Virus record (IMG/VR): IMGVR_UViG_3300006920_000236
Location: 1-24,647 of that record
DNA: 24,647 nucleotides
Direction: 5' to 3' (one strand)
Origin: a virus
Shown here: positions 5,269 to 24,474 of the stretch, piece after piece
How positions within the stretch are numbered: the stretch's first letter is position 1
How the letters are laid out: every line of letters begins with the position of its first letter
Notes under the pieces: model-generated
What the model saw: only the letters and a program-made list of their open reading frames with translations
Told to the model about the DNA's origin: nothing
Database searches by the model: none
Made by a program: the position numbers and the translations under genes

Positions 5269-6561
5269 ATGGCTATACCTAGTTCTGGACAATCTTTATC
5301 TTTTTCTTCGCTAAGAACTGAATTTGTTGGTGGCAGTAGTGCATTGCCTATTGGTGCTTTATACAGAGGTGGCTCTAATATAGCTGCTAAACACCCATCT
5401 AATCCAGCAGTAAATGATGCAGCAGATGTTCCGACAAGTGGTGCTTTAGCCATAAGTGATTATTATGGTTCTGGTAAAGGATTTACATTTACATACTCTA
5501 GTGATGCTACAGACCAAAATGTTTCAGCTTTATTCGGTACAAATGACTATCAATTAGATTATCCTAAAAATATTGTTATACCATCAGATGTGACATTAGG
5601 AACAAATAACACTTCAGAATATGCTTTAGAAGTAGATTCAGGTGGTGATGGCACTATTACTATTACTAATAATGGAAACATTATAGGAGCAGGTGGAGCA
5701 GGTGGAGCTGCAGGTTCAGCAGATGCGGCAGGTGGGAATGGTGGAGCAGGTGGTGATGCCATGAAAGCTGCGGTTGCTTGTACCTTTATTAATAATGGAA
5801 GCATCCTCGCAGGTGGAGGTGGAGGTGCTGGTGGTGGTGGAGGTGGAGCAGGTGGTGCTTTACAACAACAATCTCAAAGTACTGCACAAAATGGTCCTAA
5901 TTATGGTTCTCCTTTTTCAGGTGATAAATGGGCATCTTATCAATATTCTGGTAGTCCAAATAAACCAGCAAATACTATAGGTATTCAAGGTCCTTTTGTC
6001 GCTACTGGTCAAGGAGCAAGGGCACAATACCCTACATATGGTGTTACTAGTCCGTCTTTTGGTAGCATGCCATTTCCCCAAACTTCTAAAACAATCGGAC
6101 AATTTACATATCATAGAGGTCCACAAAGAGTGTCTAGCAACATAGTAGTGAATCCTATGGAAAGTCAACAAGTAGAGGGAAGTTATAAAAATTATGAAAT
6201 AAGAAGAACGTTTCCACAACAACAACAAACACAAGTAGCAGGACACGCAGGTGGTGCAGGTGGTGCAGGTGGATTAGGTAGAGGACACAACAATCTTCCC
6301 GGAGGTGATGCTGGAGCAAGTGGTTCTTCTGGTACTACTGGTCAAGCTGGAAATGGTGGAGATGGTGGAGACGGAGCAGCTGGAGGTGGTTATGGTCAAG
6401 CAGGAACAGCAGGTCAAGCAGGTCAAGCAGGAACAGCATCTTCGGCTAGTGGTTCAGCAGGAGGTGCAGCAGGTTCGGTTGGAGCAGCAGGTAATTATAT
6501 AGAAGGAATAAGTAATGTTACGTTTACTAATAACGGAACAGCCACAGGAGGTACAGAGTAA
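5269..6561 (+). CDS. Glycine-rich adhesin, probable receptor-binding tip (gp38-like)
   Basis: This 430-residue protein begins with a conserved marine-phage start (AIPSSGQSLSFSSLRTEFVG), followed by a beta-rich part (residues about 60-140, with TITITNNGNIIGAGGAGG). From about residue 141 there are three glycine-dense blocks: about 141-165, 182-200 and 325-410. They are separated by Gln/Ser-rich and aromatic loops that include RRTFPQQQQTQ. Alternating glycine tracts and variable loops are the plan of T-even gp38 adhesins, which pack polyglycine-II helices and bind host outer-membrane receptors through the loops. It lies directly downstream of the S74 tail fibre, as expected for a fibre-tip adhesin, and overlaps the next gene by one base. 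The fold assignment is inference from composition and context; another possibility is a glycine-rich structural tail protein of T4-like cyanophages. Confidence 0.72.
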   Translation: MAIPSSGQSLSFSSLRTEFVGGSSALPIGALYRGGSNIAAKHPSNPAVNDAADVPTSGALAISDYYGSGKGFTFTYSSDATDQNVSALFGTNDYQLDYPKNIVIPSDVTLGTNNTSEYALEVDSGGDGTITITNNGNIIGAGGAGGAAGSADAAGGNGGAGGDAMKAAVACTFINNGSILAGGGGGAGGGGGGAGGALQQQSQSTAQNGPNYGSPFSGDKWASYQYSGSPNKPANTIGIQGPFVATGQGARAQYPTYGVTSPSFGSMPFPQTSKTIGQFTYHRGPQRVSSNIVVNPMESQQVEGSYKNYEIRRTFPQQQQTQVAGHAGGAGGAGGLGRGHNNLPGGDAGASGSSGTTGQAGNGGDGGDGAAGGGYGQAGTAGQAGQAGTASSASGSAGGAAGSVGAAGNYIEGISNVTFTNNGTATGGTE

Positions 6562-6941
6562 TGGCAACATATGCTTGGACAATAGATAAGTTATATACAA
6601 AAGATATCACAAAAAATGGAACTACCTATTCAGATAGTATACTCAGAGTAGAAGCAACTTTAACTGCAACAAGTGAAACTGTAGGAAGTATCAGTTCTGT
6701 AAGCACATTTGATTTAGACATGAATGTAGACAATATAGATAGTAGTTTTACAGCATATGCATCTGTAACAGAAGCTAATGTAAAAACTTGGGTAGAAAAT
6801 AAAGTAGGTTTAGCTACTATAACTGAAATTAAAAAGGGTATAGAAGCAGAAATAGATTTTTTAGAAAAGGTTAATGGTAGTGTAGCAAAAGGTAGCACTG
6901 ATTCAGACAATAATTTTACATCTGCGTTCCCTTGGGATTAA
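6561..6941 (+). CDS. DUF7936-like small phage protein
   Basis: This 126-residue protein starts ATYAWTIDKLYTKDI, alternates beta strands (SILRVEATLTATSE, STFDLDMNVD), and ends in a helix (VKTWVENKVG, then ITEIKKGIEAEIDFLEKVNG) with a short acidic tail finishing in PWD. The pattern matches a family (DUF7936, as I recall) common in marine phages, often beside glycine-rich tail genes. The start overlaps the adhesin stop by one base, implying coupled translation, so it may be a tail-fibre accessory or assembly factor; that role is inference. It is the last gene before the AT-rich enzyme cassette. Confidence 0.75.
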   Translation: MATYAWTIDKLYTKDITKNGTTYSDSILRVEATLTATSETVGSISSVSTFDLDMNVDNIDSSFTAYASVTEANVKTWVENKVGLATITEIKKGIEAEIDFLEKVNGSVAKGSTDSDNNFTSAFPWD

Positions 6942-6984: not shown

Positions 6985-7521
6985 ATGAATAAAATATTAA
7001 AACTTTTAAATAATGAACATGCAAAATGTTTATCAACACACATGGAATATCTAGAACCTAGTATACCTAAAGTTACAGATAGTCCTTTTGCAGGTAGTAA
7101 AAGCATATATGCAGACCCTGTATTTGAAAGTTTATTAAATTATCTAAAACCTAAAATAGAAGAAAATTATGGTAAATCACTAGTTCCTACTTATTCATTT
7201 TGGAGAACATATTATAAAAATCAAGATTGTCCACCACATAAAGACAGACCATCCTGTGAAGTAAGTGTAACACTCTGTATTGATGCATCTTATAAAGATG
7301 ACATGTGGGCAATAAATGTAGAAGATAAAACATTTAAATTAAATGTAGGTGAAGGTGTTATATATAAAGGTTGTGAACAAGAACATTGGAGACATGAACT
7401 TACATATGATTGGCACAGACAAGTGTTTCTTCATTATATAGAAAAAGATGGGCAGTTCTATCCTGAGTTTAAATATGACAAAAGAATAAATATATATGAA
7501 AATATGGTAGTAGGGGAATGA
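6985..7521 (+). CDS. 2-oxoglutarate/Fe(II)-dependent oxygenase (first of four)
   Basis: This 178-residue protein has the short double-stranded beta-helix layout. PPHKDRP supplies the H-x-D iron pair (H85, D87). It is followed by the strand SCEVSVTLCID, a hydrophobic strand FKLNVGEGVIYKGC, and EQEHWRHEL with H134 as the distal iron histidine, then HRQVFLHYIEKD. The GCE-x-EHWR and QVFLHY segments resemble phage prolyl-hydroxylase-like proteins I recall from marine genomes. Such enzymes couple oxidation of 2-oxoglutarate to hydroxylation or related chemistry on a protein or small-molecule substrate. No signal peptide is visible, so it should act in the cytoplasm. It opens the cassette, after a 43-base gap without a clear Shine-Dalgarno, and its stop overlaps the next start (ATGA). 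The arginine that holds 2-oxoglutarate is not certain (R145 is a candidate). Substrate unknown. Confidence 0.78.
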   Translation: MNKILKLLNNEHAKCLSTHMEYLEPSIPKVTDSPFAGSKSIYADPVFESLLNYLKPKIEENYGKSLVPTYSFWRTYYKNQDCPPHKDRPSCEVSVTLCIDASYKDDMWAINVEDKTFKLNVGEGVIYKGCEQEHWRHELTYDWHRQVFLHYIEKDGQFYPEFKYDKRINIYENMVVGE

Positions 7522-8090
7522 AAAGAAATATAATAATAGCAAAAAAAGCTTTAGCTCCTCAACTATGTGAAGAAATTATAGAGCTAGGAAAAAATCAATT
7601 CCAAAAAGGTTGTATAGGTTCTGCTGGAGAACACGCAGGAATAAATAAAAAAGTTAGAAATAGTGAGGTATGTTTTTTTGATGGTAGTATACCTTATTTT
7701 AATTTGTATAAACCTATACTAGAATTAGTTACACACGTTAATAATACTTTTTATAAATTTGATATTAGAGAACCTGAGACATTTCAATTAACTAAATATG
7801 ACGAAGCAAACAAAGGTTTTTATAAACCACATGAAGATGGTGTTTATGATAATATTGAAGATATATCTGTAAGAAAACTTTCAATGTCTATACAATTAAC
7901 ACCCCCTGAATATTATGAAGGTGGTCAGTTAGAGTTTCCTAATGATAATGAAAAATTTATTGAGGAAGATGCAAGAGAACAAGGAACTGCTATATTTTTT
8001 CCGTCTTATTTAACGCATGGAGTACAGCCCGTTACAAAAGGTATTAGGTACAGTTTAGTTAGTTGGTTTAAAGGTCCATCATTTAGGTAG
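7518..8090 (+). CDS. 2-oxoglutarate/Fe(II)-dependent oxygenase, PKHD/P4H type (second of four)
   Basis: This 190-residue protein is the clearest oxygenase of the set. It has YKPHEDGVY with H105 and D107, then the strand KLSMSIQLTPP, YYEGGQLEFP (the usual GG-L-F turn), GTAIFFPSYLTHGVQPV with H167, and GIRYSLVSWFKGP with R177. The spacing of ten from H167 to R177 is standard for the 2-oxoglutarate-binding arginine. Overall it is close to PKHD-type hydroxylases (PiuC-like) and prolyl-4-hydroxylase catalytic domains, of about usual length for the former. It starts inside the preceding stop (ATGA), so the two are co-translated. Target unknown; candidates are a virion protein, a host protein or a small molecule. 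Confidence 0.9.
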   Translation: MKRNIIIAKKALAPQLCEEIIELGKNQFQKGCIGSAGEHAGINKKVRNSEVCFFDGSIPYFNLYKPILELVTHVNNTFYKFDIREPETFQLTKYDEANKGFYKPHEDGVYDNIEDISVRKLSMSIQLTPPEYYEGGQLEFPNDNEKFIEEDAREQGTAIFFPSYLTHGVQPVTKGIRYSLVSWFKGPSFR

Positions 8091-8097
8091 AGTTGAT

Positions 8098-8730
8098 ATG
8101 AATAAAGAACAATTTCTTGAAGCTTGTAAAAATGAAAATAGTTATGGTGATTGTTTTTATTCAGTTTATGATGAGTTTTTACCATACCAAGAGTTTGGAT
8201 TATTGCAAGACACTATGCTAACTTTAGGGTGGACTATTAGTGGTAAAATTAATCAGAATGATACATCAAACAAAGATTTCTATTTAGTTAAGTCCATATA
8301 TAACAATGAAAGATATGCTAGAGAACAATGGTCTCCTAATGTAAATATAGACCCCTTTTTAAGTATCACTAATAAAATTCATATAGATGCATTGATGAGA
8401 ATTAAAGCTAATTTATATATGGGGTCTAATATAAACAGTATACATGCACCCCATATAGACTATAACTTTTTTCATATAGGTGCTTTATTTTTTGTCTTTG
8501 ATTGTGATGCTCCGACTTACATGGCAGATGGTACTGAAATAGAATCAAAAAGGAATCGACTTATAGTATTTAATGCTGCAACACCACATTCAAGTTCAGC
8601 ACCGACAGATACACTATATAGAATGACAATAAATATTAATTATTTTGGGGCAGGGGTTAATCAAGACTACATAAGAAACCATTCAAATAGTATACCAACA
8701 CTACAATCTGAAAATTATCCTTTTAAATGA
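8098..8730 (+). CDS. 2-oxoglutarate/Fe(II)-dependent oxygenase (third of four)
   Basis: This 210-residue protein keeps all the core residues. HAPHIDYNF gives H119 and D121, followed by the strand HIGALFFVFDCD, a turn with ADGTEIESKRNRLIVFNAATPHSS (H164), and TLYRMTININYF with R175, eleven residues after the histidine. The N-terminal third is a helical lead with FLPYQEFGLLQD, as in phage oxygenases that recruit a substrate there. It differs strongly from the second oxygenase, so the cassette is not a recent tandem duplication. The gap before its start is 7 bases, and its stop overlaps the QueC-like gene (ATGA). Substrate unknown. Confidence 0.85.
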   Translation: MNKEQFLEACKNENSYGDCFYSVYDEFLPYQEFGLLQDTMLTLGWTISGKINQNDTSNKDFYLVKSIYNNERYAREQWSPNVNIDPFLSITNKIHIDALMRIKANLYMGSNINSIHAPHIDYNFFHIGALFFVFDCDAPTYMADGTEIESKRNRLIVFNAATPHSSSAPTDTLYRMTININYFGAGVNQDYIRNHSNSIPTLQSENYPFK

Positions 8731-9389
8731 GTGAAACGGAATTAGTTTTATTTTCTGGAGGACCAGATAGTACAATACTACTTAAACATCTTTTACAAGA
8801 AAACAAAAAGGTAAGAGTTCTGTATATCGAAATGGGTTGGGCATTAAGAACTCAACCTAGAATAAAGTTTCAAAACGTAGCGGCTAACAATGTTTTAAAT
8901 TATTTAAGAGAAAAGTATGGAAACTTTAAATATTCACAAGCATCTATACTTACTACTTTAGATGAAGAAAACGAAGATAAGTATTTTGGAACAGACCATC
9001 AATGGTGTGCTTTTTTTGGGTCAACGTTTTGTAATAACTATAACATAAAAAGAATGTGGGCAGGTAATTATACATATACAGATTTAGTTGTTCAAAAGAG
9101 AGATGGTAAATCAGAAGATTATTTATATAATGGTGGTTTAGACATGTGGATGAAAGCAGCTACAAAGTTTTTAAATGACCCACCTAAATATTGTACACCT
9201 AAATTAAACTTTAACGGAACTAGTATTGATAGATTTAAAACAAAAAAAGAAGCATGGGATTCACTAGAAATGGATTTAAAGAAAATGGTGCGAAGTTGTG
9301 TTTCTGATAAGTGGTTCTGTGGTAACTGTCCTAAATGTTGGACAGCAAAAGAATATAATTTAAGAGATAACATGGGTAATCCTTTATGA
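8727..9389 (+). CDS. QueC-like PP-loop ATPase (7-cyano-7-deazaguanine synthase family)
   Basis: This 220-residue protein begins with a PP-loop: ELVLFSGGPDSTILLKHLL, with SGGPDST at residues 10-16 binding ATP pyrophosphate. At the C-terminus C191, C198, C201 and C204 (C-x6-C-x2-C-x2-C, in SCVSDKWFCGNCPKCW) match the QueC zinc site. QueC converts 7-carboxy-7-deazaguanine to preQ0 in queuosine and archaeosine synthesis, and phage relatives feed 7-deazaguanine DNA modification; diverged homologues such as QatC belong to defence systems. QueD, QueE, FolE and a transglycosylase are absent from this window, so the substrate is open. The middle (about residues 60-170) looks divergent, with DHQWCAFFGSTFC and GGLDMWMKA. 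It overlaps both neighbours by ATGA junctions, placing it in the same translation unit as the oxygenases. The superfamily is well supported; QueC activity is not. Confidence 0.75.
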   Translation: MSETELVLFSGGPDSTILLKHLLQENKKVRVLYIEMGWALRTQPRIKFQNVAANNVLNYLREKYGNFKYSQASILTTLDEENEDKYFGTDHQWCAFFGSTFCNNYNIKRMWAGNYTYTDLVVQKRDGKSEDYLYNGGLDMWMKAATKFLNDPPKYCTPKLNFNGTSIDRFKTKKEAWDSLEMDLKKMVRSCVSDKWFCGNCPKCWTAKEYNLRDNMGNPL

Positions 9390-9958
9390 ATCCTGTTTAC
9401 ACTATAATGACACCAACTAAAATTCCTGTAGGCAAGGTAGATAAAAGTATAAATAAACAATTTATTAAAGATTGTAAGGAGTACCCTAATGAAGACCTTA
9501 AAGGAATGGCTCAATCAGGTTTAATAAATCCTAAATTTATGTCTAAAATGGATTTGCACTTGATAAAAAGTATTCAAGATAAGTATATAAGACCTTATCT
9601 ATTTGATATATTAATGTCATTATTTATAGATAGTACACATTATTCTCCTTTAAAAAGAGATGTAATTCAAAACTATCACAAACATATAAATATTAGAGAG
9701 TTATGGTTGGTTGAATATGATAATGAATCGTATTTTAAATCACATACTCATGTCTCTTTACCTAGTCATTATAGTTTTAGTTGGTATTTAAAATGTGACA
9801 CTAATAGAAAAGTAATATTTATATCAGAGAATAAAGAATATGAAGTAATAGTTTCAGAAGGGGATATATTAATGTTTCCCGGTTGGTTATCCCACAGGGC
9901 AGAAAGTAGTAATAGTATTTGTTGTTCAGGTAACTTTGAAATAAATGTAAGTATGTAA
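9386..9958 (+). CDS. 2-oxoglutarate/Fe(II) oxygenase-like protein with HxH motif (fourth of four)
   Basis: In this 190-residue protein, residues about 105-190 have the oxygenase plan: LWLVEYDNESYFKSHTHVSLP, then the strand SFSWYLKCD, KVIFISENKEYEVIVSEGDILMFPGWLSH and a final strand GNFEINVSM. The pattern GD-ILMFPGWLSH resembles the TIGR02466-type putative 2OG-Fe(II) oxygenases. The proximal iron motif reads H120-T-H122 instead of H-x-D, and the distal histidine is H170. The usual arginine after it is not obvious; the equivalent stretch reads SSNSICCSGNF, although R171 follows H170 directly. Activity is therefore less sure than for the second and third oxygenases. The N-terminal half is helical and unrecognised. 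It starts by ATGA overlap with the QueC-like gene and ends the cassette. Confidence 0.68.
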   Translation: MNPVYTIMTPTKIPVGKVDKSINKQFIKDCKEYPNEDLKGMAQSGLINPKFMSKMDLHLIKSIQDKYIRPYLFDILMSLFIDSTHYSPLKRDVIQNYHKHINIRELWLVEYDNESYFKSHTHVSLPSHYSFSWYLKCDTNRKVIFISENKEYEVIVSEGDILMFPGWLSHRAESSNSICCSGNFEINVSM

Positions 9959-10043: not shown

Positions 10044-10424
10044 ATGCTCTTTTGTAATGCACCATTTTCAACAAATCCGTTTAATGATATTAATATTACT
10101 TCTAGAGAATTCTATTTTGAAGTATTACCAAGTGGTGTTGAAACTTGGAGTGCTTTTACAGCACCAAACAATGAGGTTACTTTATCCGCATCTACTCCTG
10201 CAGCCTCTTTTTCAGAAGTTTCTTTTTCTCAAGTAGGGTTATCTGATTTAGGATTTCTATCGTTAAGGGAGTCTTGGTCTGATATTGCTAATCCTGTATA
10301 TGGACCAGCAACCGTTAACACTCAAACATGGGCAACCGTTTCACCTTCTGGAGACGAAACATGGACAACTATATCTTCACCCGAGAATGAAGGCTGGGTT
10401 GATATAAGCACTAGAATAATATAG
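10044..10424 (+). CDS. Small repeat-containing hypothetical protein, possible tail component
   Basis: This 126-residue protein contains an internal repeat: SGVETWSAFTAPNNE (about residues 31-45) and SGDETWTTISSPENE (about 102-116), with the shared pattern SG-x-ETW and P-x-NE. Several more W-x-x-[IV] steps lie between (SWSDI, TWATV, GWVDI). The composition is Ser/Thr/Pro-rich, with few lysines. Such regular Trp-containing short repeats suggest a small beta-sheet or beta-solenoid structural protein. It is the first gene after the promoter at 9985-10012, with only a weak Shine-Dalgarno (AGAG) before the ATG, and it sits directly upstream of a fibre gene. I do not recognise the family; a tail accessory role is inferred from place. 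Confidence 0.65.
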   Translation: MLFCNAPFSTNPFNDINITSREFYFEVLPSGVETWSAFTAPNNEVTLSASTPAASFSEVSFSQVGLSDLGFLSLRESWSDIANPVYGPATVNTQTWATVSPSGDETWTTISSPENEGWVDISTRII

Positions 10425-10478
10425 GATGTAAACATGGCAAGTACATATACAGGATGTAAACATGGCAAGTACATATAC
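10423..10478 (+). repeat. Exact 28-bp tandem duplication of a translation start
   Basis: Copies at 10423-10450 and 10451-10478 are identical, and two more bases continue the period. Each copy holds AGGA, a 7-base spacer and ATGGCAAGTACATATAC. Because 28 is not a multiple of three, the first ATG (10434) opens a 16-codon frame that stops at 10482-10484, inside the true gene starting at 10462. The copy is perfect, so it is recent, under selection or an assembly error. Confidence 0.95.
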
Positions 10479-10484
10479 AGTTAA
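10434..10484 (+). other. 16-codon decoy reading frame overlapping the true fibre start
   Basis: The ATG at 10434 has the same Shine-Dalgarno and spacing as the real start 28 bases later, but lies in another frame. It reads Met-Ala-Ser-Thr-Tyr-Thr, then Gly-Cys-Lys-His and so on, ending at TAA 10482-10484. Ribosomes starting here would finish 20 bases past the true ATG, so they might compete with or re-initiate at it. No protein function is proposed. Confidence 0.5.
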
Positions 10485-11400: not shown

Positions 11401-12489
11401 ATGACAATTCCTATGATTGGAAACACTGGCTTTACAGAAGTTAGCTCATCGGGAACTTTAAATGATAAAGCTGGAGCTAAAATAAATTTACCTGTGCAAA
11501 TATTTAAACTGACTGAGAATATTTCGGGTAATTTAACTTTAAACAACAATTCAAACCATAAAAAAATTATATTAGATACCAATGGAAAAACAATATTAAA
11601 TTCAGCGGGAGCTCCTTTAACTACAAACTCAAGCACAACACTAGAGCTTCAAGGCACGGGTAATATACAGTCAACCTTAAAAACTTTCACTAGTTCTGTT
11701 AGTGACACATCGAATACTGGCACAACAACTATAAGTGAAGCAGATAGTTCAACTATGGCAATTACAAGTACGGATACAACCACAAATAGCTTTGTAGATA
11801 AAGCCACTGCTAGTGGAAGTAGTCTTAGTTTAACAACTTCAAACTCACCTATTTCATCTAATGGCAATCAATTAGCTGGAGCGTTCTTCGTAGATCACGA
11901 TGATTTGGCTTCTGTTTTTCAGTCCGGTAGTGGTTTTGCATCTGGTATATTATTCACAGGAACAAGTGCTCGTAGCACCACGACACCCCCTGATCAATCT
12001 AGTGGAACTGGAACTGTATCTTTTCCCTTAACAATCGGAGCTACTACTAGTATTTCAAGTGTAGGAGGCTTTGGATCAATTCTTCAGCAAAACGGAACTG
12101 GTGGTGTTGCTGATCAAATATTAATATTTAAACCTGCTTCTGAAGCAAGTAATGATGAAAATGACAGCGGTAGCCATATTTCCGTTTCATTAAGAGCACA
12201 TTTTAGAATAACAGTATCAGGTGCTAATAGAATATTAACTTTTACTAATAATTTAGCTGTCTCGGTTGTTTTATCCGGAAGTGACCCTTATGATGATGTT
12301 ACAGTCAGTGCGGGAGCTACGGCAGTTGTCACTAGAACAGGATCAACAGACGGATCTTTTAGTCTTACTGGAACTATCTCTGGTAGTGATGGTAGTAGTC
12401 AACCCTTTGCTTTAGCTGTTGTGAACAGTGGCACAGGTAGTTTAAATACTGATGGTTATTCTGGAACTTTTTCTGCGAGTGGATTGTAA
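11401..12489 (+). CDS. Ser/Thr/Gly-rich hypothetical virion protein
   Basis: This 362-residue protein starts MTIPMIGNTGFTEVSSSGTL and is very rich in Ser, Thr and Gly. Residues about 45-85 alternate short strands with asparagines (NLTLNNNSNHKKIILDTNGK), as in beta-helix ladders. Residues about 95-150 are a Thr/Ser linker, and residues about 155-362 appear to be a globular beta domain (GAFFVDHDDLASVFQSGSGF, HISVSLRAHFRITVSGANRI, VVLSGSDPYDDVTVSAGATA). No enzyme motif is apparent. It lies 6 bases after a fibre gene and overlaps the gp10-like gene by one base, so a tail-fibre or neck-associated virion role is likely. Family not recognised. Confidence 0.7.
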   Translation: MTIPMIGNTGFTEVSSSGTLNDKAGAKINLPVQIFKLTENISGNLTLNNNSNHKKIILDTNGKTILNSAGAPLTTNSSTTLELQGTGNIQSTLKTFTSSVSDTSNTGTTTISEADSSTMAITSTDTTTNSFVDKATASGSSLSLTTSNSPISSNGNQLAGAFFVDHDDLASVFQSGSGFASGILFTGTSARSTTTPPDQSSGTGTVSFPLTIGATTSISSVGGFGSILQQNGTGGVADQILIFKPASEASNDENDSGSHISVSLRAHFRITVSGANRILTFTNNLAVSVVLSGSDPYDDVTVSAGATAVVTRTGSTDGSFSLTGTISGSDGSSQPFALAVVNSGTGSLNTDGYSGTFSASGL

Positions 12490-14624
12490 TGCCAATAACA
12501 AAATTAAAATTTAAACCAGGAGTTGTATCAGATATTACCTCTGAAAGTAATGAAGGCGGTTTCGTAGATGGAGATAAAGTAAGATTTAGATTTGGTTTTC
12601 CAGAAAAGTTTGGCGGTTGGGCAAAGTACAGTTCTAATACTGTTGAAGGATCAGCAAGAAGATTACATAATTGGGTCGCTTTGGATGGATCTGACTATAT
12701 GGGGATTGGCACAAATCTAAAGTATTACATAGAAGAAGGTCAGACATTTAACGATATAACACCCGTCCGAAGCACAACATCAGCGGGCGATGTAACCTTT
12801 TCTGCAACAAACGGATCAACAACAGTAACTGTAATAGATCCAGCACATGGTGCAAATGAAAGTGATTTTGTTACTTTTTCTGGTGCAGCTACACTTGGAG
12901 GTACTATAACAGCAACAATATTAAATGCAGAGTTTCAAATCGTATCTTTAATAAGCTCTAACTCTTATACAATTACATCTTCTGTCGCAGCAAATGGTTC
13001 CGACACTGGTAGTGGTGGTTCCAATGCTGTTGGCACATATCAAATAAACACAGGTCTTGATGTTACAGTTGGTGGAACTGGCTGGGGTGCTGGACAATGG
13101 AGTGGTACAACCTCTGGTGCTTTAGCTACACAACTGGCTGAAGCTTTAGATAATAGTGAAACTGCCATTGATGTAGACGATGAAACGGGTATGAACACAG
13201 CTAACGATGTTATCTTAGTTGATAACGAACTTATGCTTGTATCGGCAACCACGGATGACAATACAATGACCGTAACTCGTGGACATAGTGGCACGGATGC
13301 TGTAGCTCACGATGATGATACACTTGTACGATTAGCCGTAGGTAATGCAGATTCTGCCAATGATTTTGTTGGTTGGAACAATGCAGCGAGTGTCACGGTT
13401 TCCGGTGCACAGATTAGATTGTGGTCACACGATAATTTTGGTGAAGATATAATAATAAATCCAAGAGATGGTGGTTTGTTTTACTGGGATAGAACCAATG
13501 GTCTTAGCACTAGAGCGATAGAGTTAAGCACGATTAGTGGTACAAAGACTAGTGTTCCACAAGTTGCTAAACAAGTGCTTGTATCAGACCAAGACAGACA
13601 TGTGATTGCTTTTGGTTGTGATGGGTTTGGAGCTACTCGCACCACGGAAAAAGGTAGTGGGGTACAAGATCCATTGCTTATTAGATTCTCCTCACAAGAA
13701 AATCCTATTGATTGGTTTCCGACTGCTACAAACACAGCAGGTGATTTAAGACTTGGTGGTGGATCAACCTTTGTTCAAGCCGTAGAAACAAAGCAACAGA
13801 TACTTGTGTTTACTAATAAAACATTACACGCCATGAAATTTATAGGTCCTCCATTTACGTTTGGTTTGCAGGAACTATCTAAGAATATCACAATCATGAG
13901 TCCGTTTTCGGGTATAGCTGTTGAGGATGCTGTTTTTTGGATGGGTGTGGATACTTTCTATGTATATGCAGGTGGTCAAACTGCTCAACTGCCTTGCACT
14001 GTAAAAGATAAAGTGTTTTTAAATTTTAACTTTGAAGAACGAGACAAGGTTCATGTTGGATTAAATTCAGAGTTTAGTGAAATATTATGGTTTTATCCAA
14101 CTAAGTCTAGTACGGAAATAGATTCATATGTTGCTTATAATTATCAAGAAAAGGTCTGGTATTATGGAACACTAGCTCGTCAAGCATGGCTTGACAGAGG
14201 TATAAGAACATTACCTATGGCAACTGGTGGACAATATTTATATAACCATGAGGTAGGTTATGATGATGATGGTTCTGCCATGACATCTTTTATTGAATCA
14301 GCACCAATAGATATAGGTGATGGCGATAAGTTTGTGTTTTTAAAAAGAGTTATACCCGATATAACTTTTGATGGATCTACTAGTGTTAATCCCGATGTAT
14401 CTTTTACAATGAAAACAAAGAACTTTCCTGGATCTAACTTTAGTGAAACAACAGAAGGTACCACACAAAGATCTTCTACAAGTCCTATCGAACAGTTCAC
14501 AGAAAAGTTAGATTATAGACTACGAGGTAGATCTTTTGCTTTAAGAATAGATTCAACCTCCTTGGGTACAAAATATAAGCTAGGTACACCAAGAGTTGAT
14601 ATACGAGAGGATGGTAGACGATAA
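12489..14624 (+). CDS. Tail/DNA-stabilisation protein (P22 gp10-like) with inserted modules
   Basis: This 711-residue protein has the P22 gp10-type beginning PITKLKFKPGVVSDITSESN, then DGDKVRFRFGFPEKFGGWAKY and RRLHNWVALDGSDYMGIGTN. The conserved propeller region continues from about residue 300 (SHDNFGEDIIINPRDGGLFYWD, VLVSDQDRHVIAFGCDG, DPLLIRFSSQENPIDWFPT, TKQQILVFTNKTLHAMKFIG, VEDAVFWMGVDTFYVYAGGQ). Two modules interrupt it: about 101-187, with DPAHG at 117-121 and resembling the C-terminus of the protein at 1435-1935; and about 211-285, with ETAIDVDDETG and MTVTRGHSGTDAVAHDDDT. They help explain why it exceeds P22 gp10 (about 470 residues). In P22 this protein forms the hub between gp4 and the needle and plugs DNA leakage. 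It overlaps both neighbours by one base. Confidence 0.85.
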   Translation: MPITKLKFKPGVVSDITSESNEGGFVDGDKVRFRFGFPEKFGGWAKYSSNTVEGSARRLHNWVALDGSDYMGIGTNLKYYIEEGQTFNDITPVRSTTSAGDVTFSATNGSTTVTVIDPAHGANESDFVTFSGAATLGGTITATILNAEFQIVSLISSNSYTITSSVAANGSDTGSGGSNAVGTYQINTGLDVTVGGTGWGAGQWSGTTSGALATQLAEALDNSETAIDVDDETGMNTANDVILVDNELMLVSATTDDNTMTVTRGHSGTDAVAHDDDTLVRLAVGNADSANDFVGWNNAASVTVSGAQIRLWSHDNFGEDIIINPRDGGLFYWDRTNGLSTRAIELSTISGTKTSVPQVAKQVLVSDQDRHVIAFGCDGFGATRTTEKGSGVQDPLLIRFSSQENPIDWFPTATNTAGDLRLGGGSTFVQAVETKQQILVFTNKTLHAMKFIGPPFTFGLQELSKNITIMSPFSGIAVEDAVFWMGVDTFYVYAGGQTAQLPCTVKDKVFLNFNFEERDKVHVGLNSEFSEILWFYPTKSSTEIDSYVAYNYQEKVWYYGTLARQAWLDRGIRTLPMATGGQYLYNHEVGYDDDGSAMTSFIESAPIDIGDGDKFVFLKRVIPDITFDGSTSVNPDVSFTMKTKNFPGSNFSETTEGTTQRSSTSPIEQFTEKLDYRLRGRSFALRIDSTSLGTKYKLGTPRVDIREDGRR

Positions 14625-23651: not shown

Positions 23652-23833
23652 TGGAAGATGGTCCTTTTAAGCAGTGTTTAGAACAAAACACCGAAGGTGT
23701 TATTAGACAAGAACTAATAACATATAGAATAGAAGATGGTATTTTAAAAAGACAAATAGTCACAAGAGATTTTATTGAATCTGGTGACTACCATGATACT
23801 TCATACTCACTACCTTTGGTGACTATGCATTAA
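23651..23833 (+). CDS. 60-residue conserved marine phage protein of unknown function
   Basis: The protein starts MEDGPFKQCLEQNTEGVIRQ and continues ELITYRIEDG, IVTRDFIESGDYHDTSYSLP. I recall near-identical small proteins in many marine phages, always uncharacterised. It has no membrane segment, so it is not an obvious holin. It overlaps both neighbours by one base (TAATG at each end), between the endolysin and a second conserved protein. Its invariably small size suggests a structural or regulatory partner. Function unknown. Confidence 0.75.
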   Translation: MEDGPFKQCLEQNTEGVIRQELITYRIEDGILKRQIVTRDFIESGDYHDTSYSLPLVTMH

Positions 23834-24474
23834 TGTCCACTTTAATTTGTAACTTACCCTCCGTAGACGTATGGGTCAGACGAGAATATTTAAGGGATCA
23901 TCAAGATGGACATGGAGAATTCGTAAAAGGTGTCTGGGTTAGTGCTAAATCTATTCCAGGCAGAAGTTTTTATTTTGAAACTTACCTTCCTGATTATGGT
24001 GCTTTGTATGACAAACTACCTATTTCAGCATTCTTATCGAGCCCCGATACCCCGACCACAGATATGGATCTTTACAATCTTCAGTTTTGGAATTGCATGG
24101 ATTATGGCGTGGTATCTATTTGTAAACAATTTATAGGATCAATGGACTTTGAAATACTAACAAGGGATCACGGTACAATGATGGGTACATATATTTGTAC
24201 TCTTGATAATTATCATCAAGACCCAGACGTAATAGATTATTCTACCAGCGAAACACCAGCAGAACATAAATCATTTAACCTTTTAGAATTAAAGAACGGA
24301 CAGTTCTGTTTGTATCCGAACAATAGAATGAGAGTCTATGATAATTCTTTGACACCTCAAGAGCCATTGCAACCAGACTTCAAAGTGAGTACAATAGAGT
24401 ATCAAGTTGAGAATGGTCAAAAATTTAGACTTGGTGATACAGATGAATACTTTTGGAAAACCAAAGATGAATGA
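23833..24474 (+). CDS. Conserved marine phage protein of unknown function
   Basis: This 213-residue protein starts STLICNLPSVDVWVRREYLR, followed by DHQDGHGEFVKGVWVSAKSI, PGRSFYFETYLPDYGALYDK and LPISAFL. The pattern is highly conserved in marine phage genomes I remember, yet it has no assigned function. It is beta-rich, with many aromatic residues, several Asp/His/Cys positions (WNCMDYGVVSICKQF, LTRDHGTMMGTYICTLDNYH), and a C-terminal VSTIEYQVENGQKFRLGDTD. No known enzyme motif is evident. It overlaps the 60-residue gene by one base and the next gene by four (ATGA). In related genomes the large terminase often lies nearby, so it may serve packaging or late expression; that is inference. Confidence 0.78.
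   Translation: MSTLICNLPSVDVWVRREYLRDHQDGHGEFVKGVWVSAKSIPGRSFYFETYLPDYGALYDKLPISAFLSSPDTPTTDMDLYNLQFWNCMDYGVVSICKQFIGSMDFEILTRDHGTMMGTYICTLDNYHQDPDVIDYSTSETPAEHKSFNLLELKNGQFCLYPNNRMRVYDNSLTPQEPLQPDFKVSTIEYQVENGQKFRLGDTDEYFWKTKDE

Follow-up and report, generated by a model that had tools for sequence, protein, structure and literature searches.

Two groups of enzymes bear on the locus described here, a five-gene cassette at positions 6985-9958 of the virus record IMGVR_UViG_3300006920_000236, whose whole 24,647-bp (24.6 kb) IMG/VR contig was analysed (hereafter, the window). The first is the QueC family, whose role in protein modification during bacterial immunity is a recent finding. In particular, Cap9 of the type IV cyclic oligonucleotide-based antiphage signalling system (CBASS) conjugates 7-carboxy-7-deazaguanine (CDG) to a protein N-terminal glycine, the carboxylated base being joined to the protein N-terminus (PMC13279940). 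For Escherichia coli QueC itself, Y35, R99 and Y131, which lie within the substrate motifs, are required for activity (PMC13329287). The second group is the 2-oxoglutarate (2OG)-Fe(II) oxygenases. An earlier note on this DNA described such genes as common singly near marine phage tail genes, and they are indeed known from host-recognition islands (PMC3909814, PMC9599517): in hypervariable islands they fall in the host-recognition category (PMC3909814), and clusters of them are reported in HTVC023P-type pelagiphages (PMC9599517). Literature searches turned up no study that demonstrates what phage tail oxygenases do. Serial action of iron oxygenases and an asparagine-synthetase-like nitrile synthetase on one ribosomal peptide has been described for nitrilobacillin, a ribosomally synthesised and post-translationally modified peptide (PMC13060819).

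In the window, four predicted oxygenase genes and one gene for a QueC-like protein (PP) lie together on the + strand in the order oxA-oxB-oxC-PP-oxD. ATGA overlaps join them at 7518-7521, 8727-8730 and 9386-9389, and the remaining junction is a 7-base gap (8091-8097), exactly as the earlier note described these five open reading frames. We read the five genes as an enzyme set that is modular and coupled in translation, located where a podovirus tail operon encodes host recognition. The gene set is not a chance assembly, as it recurs across many independent contigs with low ratios of nonsynonymous to synonymous substitution (dN/dS). In the gene identities and their linkage, taken alone, we have high confidence. 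Oxygenases in marine phage host-recognition islands were known before; what is new here is a branch of the QueC family that had not been reported before.

Identity of the QueC-like protein

PP (8727..9389, +, 220 aa) is a predicted QueC-like PP-loop ATPase with a four-cysteine site. Its match to the QueC family model PF06508 (4.9e-4, 20.1 bits) lies under the gathering cut-off of 22, and a sequence search of solved structures returned only sub-threshold QueC/Cap9 matches, located at the PP-loop. The AlphaFold2 (AF2) model (pLDDT 84.6) has Cap9 (VIA Z 15.5), QueC (15.1 and 15.0) and QatC (13.6) as nearest solved structures, ahead of YcfA (12.7) and other PP-loop enzymes. The superposition covers 169 residues at 3.0 A for Cap9 and 184 residues at 3.8 A for QueC (3bl5). 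Among viral predicted structures, the fold search mostly returned QueC-like proteins of phages and gave no closer lead.

Motifs were counted in 28 distinct PP relatives (<95% identity). All 28 carry the ATP loop SGGx[DE]S and a putative zinc site C-x6-CxxCxxC, the canonical QueC spacing being C(x)8CxxCxxC; in PP itself these are SGGPDS and C191-x6-C198-x2-C201-x2-C204, the PP-loop and four cysteines that had been noticed earlier. Two PP-specific motifs, DxQWxxF ([DE]x[QE]WxxF-type) and KKEAW (KK[ED][AS]), are likewise present in relaxed form in 28/28. The QueC substrate-site motifs YxQxHxxE, VPxRN and YPDC, as defined in PMC13329287, were each found in 0/28. Because these substrate motifs are gone and the ATP loop and cysteines are kept, PP is not an ordinary QueC, and we infer a separate clade with conserved ATP chemistry and a changed substrate. 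In the parts consulted, the 2026 family survey (PMC13329287) contains no such QueC-family cluster.

This bears directly on the possibility that PP acts as a phage QueC and supplies preQ0 for modification of DNA or tRNA. Such a role would agree with the QueC fold and with the sub-threshold PF06508 match, and phages that encode QueC are known, with 303 records matching the E. coli protein. PP also resembles the preQ0 synthase in its SGGxDS loop and in the order of its four cysteines. However, PP lacks all three substrate motifs and has its own two instead, it is located in a tail operon, and no queD was found nearby, with 0/20 matches to PTPS (QueD) among the PP-bearing records, which are fragments. 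Deazaguanine chemistry, which the earlier note had named for QueC relatives, is thus unlikely in its canonical form, and synthesis of preQ0 for nucleic acids is very improbable.

The likeness to Cap9 extends to the QueC-type PP-loop fold, a size of ~185-220 aa, the SGGxDS loop and the C-terminal four-cysteine site. In contrast to Cap9, which retains Y/FxQ(x)5E, YxDC and RN motifs, PP proteins scanned for the strict forms showed YxDC in 0/28, no YGQ and RN in only 3/28. The setting of PP also differs, with 2OG oxygenases around it in the tail operon of a phage; no CD-NTase operon was seen among its annotated neighbours (oxygenase and tail genes), in which no search aimed at CD-NTase was made. 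The PP-QueC profile alignment covered the N-terminal 42 columns only, so the residues of PP that would match the base-recognition Tyr/Asp of Cap9 could not be located. QatC, encoded by qatABCD, shares the QueC core fold and likewise lacks the canonical substrate motifs, but at ~400 aa it is longer than PP and bears extensions at both termini that PP does not have.

One could ask whether PP serves counter-defence, by mimicking or titrating QueC-family defence proteins (Cap9, QatC) or their substrates, as its nearest solved structures would allow. Against this, PP scores 12.4 bits with the QatC model NF041925, far under its cut-off of 280, and PADLOC matches it to the generic QueC model only (4.5e-5). 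The constant oxygenase neighbours would be left unexplained, and the ATP loop, intact in 28/28, suggests an active enzyme. Moreover, an anti-defence gene inside a structural operon would be unusual. Counter-defence is thus improbable; both it and preQ0 synthesis are less likely than tail modification, small-molecule metabolism or co-residence of unrelated genes.

Another phage contig (L129:4036-5336; L numbers denote loci) carries two QueC-like PP-loop genes in tandem that are more distantly related, with 39% identity over a part. This pair has neither KKEAW nor an adjacent oxygenase, and was left out of the 28.

The four predicted oxygenases

The four other proteins of the cassette appear to be of the Fe(II)/2OG oxygenase kind, as judged by one Pfam match, one predicted fold, and two sets of motifs with weaker profile matches. 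The Pfam match is that of oxB (7518..8090, +, 190 aa) to 2OG-FeII_Oxy_3 (PF13640, 1.6e-14, 55.1 bits against a cut-off of 27); oxB also matches phrog_61. Homology of oxA and oxC to oxB was not shown by profile comparison (hhalign probability 0.5% and 7.8%, respectively); oxA was assigned by fold and oxC by motifs. These values also agree with the earlier view that the oxygenases are mutually divergent and did not arise by recent tandem duplication.

For oxA (6985..7521, +, 178 aa), no Pfam match was obtained. Its AF2 model (pLDDT 93.4) is mainly beta, and the best PDB matches are 2OG oxygenases/prolyl hydroxylases (VIA Z 14-15.9); H85, D87 and H134 are invariant. The protein carries the PHROG label ferrochelatase (phrog_2954). 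This assignment was rejected, since a mainly beta protein of 178 aa with a confident 2OG-oxygenase-like model is not the large alpha/beta chelatase fold. oxC (8098..8730, +, 210 aa) has invariant H119-x-D121...H164...R175 and matches phrog_274 (3.6e-34), labelled 'DNA endonuclease V'; the HxD...H...R pattern argues for a probable oxygenase. oxD (9386..9958, +, 190 aa) is also a probable oxygenase, matching phrog_81 (1.2e-17) and, under the cut-off, PF13759 (5.8e-5), with invariant H120, H122 and H170.

The HxD/E...H motif with a downstream basic residue is kept throughout the distinct members of the families of oxA (24/24), oxB (38/38) and oxC (17/17), and the variant HxH...H in 7/7 distinct members of the oxD family. 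Thus, the HxD...H...R/K motifs reported earlier for oxA, oxB and oxC, and the H120-x-H122...H170 variant of oxD, were all recovered. The iron-ligand motif is also kept in every distinct member of a further family found near PP, DUF6445 (D6445).

Two side observations concern annotation. The 'ferrochelatase' label of phrog_2954, used in many GenBank records, sits on a 2OG-oxygenase family (for example HTVC023P gp67, at L031:8295-8915). Pelagiphage and cyanophage genes that had been reported as 'ferrochelatase' are thereby indicated to belong to this oxygenase family, and the pelagiphage partner genes described as ferrochelatase plus oxygenase (PMC9599517) are probably oxygenases only. DUF6445 (PF20043; phrog_1644, 'minor coat protein') members at L010:2217-3614 and L022:2472-3149 carry HxD...H...R and look oxygenase-like.

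Linkage, layouts and selection

PP relatives were obtained solely from IMG/VR contigs, and their carriers are uncultured, mostly marine phages. None was found by tblastn with three queries in 50,697 phage records, nor in GTDB genome contigs, absences that are not proof. In all 28 distinct relatives, PP directly adjoins an oxygenase gene. Three tail-operon layouts were distinguished. In the window type, g08 (5269..6561) and g09 (6561..6941) are followed by oxA-oxB-oxC-PP and then by oxD, an oxB paralogue or another, non-oxygenase gene; extra oxygenases, including DUF6445 (HxD..H..R), are optional. In the solute-binding-protein (SBP) type (L011, L013, L014 and L035), an amino-acid-binding-protein gene accompanies PP, and in L011, L013 and L035 the PP cassette is inverted relative to the tail genes, on the other strand. 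The pelagiphage type reads oxB-oxA-ox81-PP-oxC2-g18. Outside these layouts, L029 carries a DUF6445-PP pair between endolysin and adaptor genes, which is a second genomic site.

Within the SBP type, the accompanying gene (L011:6047-7051, also in L013, L014 and L035) encodes a phage ABC-type solute-binding protein for amino acids (PF00497, ~1e-14), whose N-terminus looks like a signal peptide.

The PP gene is under strong purifying selection. Its dN/dS was 0.05-0.18 in window-type pairs and 0.26 in one SBP-type pair, compared with mostly 0.1-0.35 for the oxygenases, and it was the lowest among the five genes in 5/6 window-type pairs.

The reverse relation was examined by a scan of the oxA family. 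It found at least 595 relatives, and the best 80 loci were retained. These loci are mutually related and often truncated, so that counts describe this sample only. Apart from the loci reached through PP, 73 of them were without PP, and oxB-oxA beside g18 without PP was the common state. Oxygenases had been labelled with fixed seed models that missed HTVC023P gp66 and gp71, and oxygenase counts in PP-negative loci are therefore too low, and Fisher tests based on them were given no weight. Cultured HTVC023P, which like the window has several non-orthologous oxygenases, including the oxA family, beside the g18 tail gene, differs in having no QueC-like gene among the oxygenases at the matching position. 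Since PP is always beside oxygenases and oxygenases are often without PP, PP depends on the oxygenases and not vice versa. Accordingly, the earlier proposal to look for the same gene order across phages had a divided outcome: the PP-oxygenase linkage held in every relative, across three tail layouts, in inverted cassettes and at the second site, whereas a fixed five-gene order did not, as composition varies.

Several observations count against reading the genes as one enzyme set. Two of the 73 loci, L041 and L043, have g08, g09, oxA, oxB and oxC in common with the window and no PP, so that the oxA-oxB-oxC core persists alone and these oxygenases do not need PP. Near PP in SBP-type and pelagiphage-type loci, g08 and g09 are absent, implying that no single target protein is common to all layouts. 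Divergence is also unequal along the cassette: synonymous divergence (dS) between the window and L004 was 0.09 for oxA, 0.54 for oxB, 0.71 for oxC, 0.34 for PP and 0.01 for oxD, which indicates that single genes recombine and are also inherited separately. Allele mosaicism in 6985-9958 was seen relative to both L003 and L004, with per-gene dS from 0.01 to 0.71. Variable composition and cores without PP point to a modular slot instead of a fixed five-gene cassette.

Such a slot could even gather genes with no common pathway, the region between tail fibre and g18 collecting oxygenases and cargo, with PP as a chance insertion. The frequent oxB-oxA pairs without PP, the variable composition with singly swapped alleles, and the hypervariable host-recognition islands known in marine phages (PMC3909814) would all be expected in that case. 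Chance insertion does not explain, however, why PP adjoins an oxygenase in 28/28 relatives, in inverted cassettes too and at L029, where a general slot cannot account for the pair, nor why oxC and PP have retained their overlap in several loci. We consider co-residence without a common pathway rather unlikely.

Possible target and neighbouring genes

The tail-operon position, together with the strict PP-oxygenase partnership, favours modification of a tail protein or of a tail-borne group. One or more oxygenases would hydroxylate or otherwise oxidise the substrate. PP would then use ATP to adenylate a carboxylate, for conversion to an amide or nitrile or for linkage to an amine, reactions known from QueC and Cap9. 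As substrate, a virion protein encoded in the operon itself (tail tip or fibre) would be likeliest, or else a small group borne by such a protein, and the effect of its modification would be on receptor binding or virion stability. The locus suggests a chemical modification made late in infection. The whole mechanism, substrate class included, is proposed tentatively and falls somewhat short of an even chance. The more specific idea, that several 2OG oxygenases and a QueC-like ligase build an undescribed tail-tip modification (an amide, a nitrile or a base/amino-acid conjugate) for receptor binding, is possible but on the unlikely side. Of the earlier proposal, the PP-oxygenase linkage is supported and a fixed cassette is not; a role in modifying the tail, the capsid or a host molecule, or in counter-defence, can still only be inferred.

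A partial analogy, and an analogy only, is offered by the nitrilobacillin pathway, in which one operon also combines iron oxygenases with an ATP-dependent, carboxylate-activating enzyme of PP-loop type. That system is bacterial and differs in its unrelated multinuclear non-haem iron-dependent (MNIO) and HExxH oxygenases, in its asparagine-synthetase-like enzyme and in its defined precursor peptide.

Alternatively, the substrate of the oxygenases and PP may be a free small molecule of the infected cell (an amino acid, an amide or a purine), as auxiliary metabolism, and not the virion. The solute-binding-protein gene beside PP in the four SBP-type loci is consistent with this, as is the presence of small-molecule enzymes (YcfA, LarE) among the structural neighbours of PP. 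Nevertheless, the binding-protein gene is missing from the other two layouts, the cassette sits in a structural (tail) operon, and no complete pathway is recognisable; we hold this alternative to be unlikely. If tail modification is the function, a virus-only QueC branch tied to tail-operon oxygenases would carry protein-modifying chemistry over to phage particles, and the frequent, unexplained 2OG oxygenases of marine phage host-recognition regions would gain a concrete partner and a reaction open to testing.

Among the neighbouring genes, g08 (+ strand) encodes a glycine-rich tail protein, which matches phrog_10745 (function unassigned, 4.7e-26) and phrog_11439 ('tail fiber protein', 2.9e-5). 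Its Gly-rich sequence makes it a candidate adhesin and a possible modification target. The DUF7936 protein g09 (+ strand; PF25590, 5.5e-11) is the constant upstream neighbour in window-type loci. Downstream, relatives of the large tail gene g18 (12489-14624) occur in HTVC023P-type pelagiphages, Roseobacter phages CRP-901/902 and gammaproteobacterial phage DSL-LC04, all at <60% identity, so that the window represents a podovirus-type tail region of uncertain host.

Elsewhere in the window, a 213-aa protein (23833-24474) bears the ferredoxin label of PHROG family 3704, with no obvious iron-sulphur cysteine pattern. Finally, an exact 28-base tandem duplication (GGATGTAAACATGGCAAGTACATATACA) at 10424-10479 spans the ribosome-binding and start region of the gene at 10462, and the first ATG reads into an early stop.

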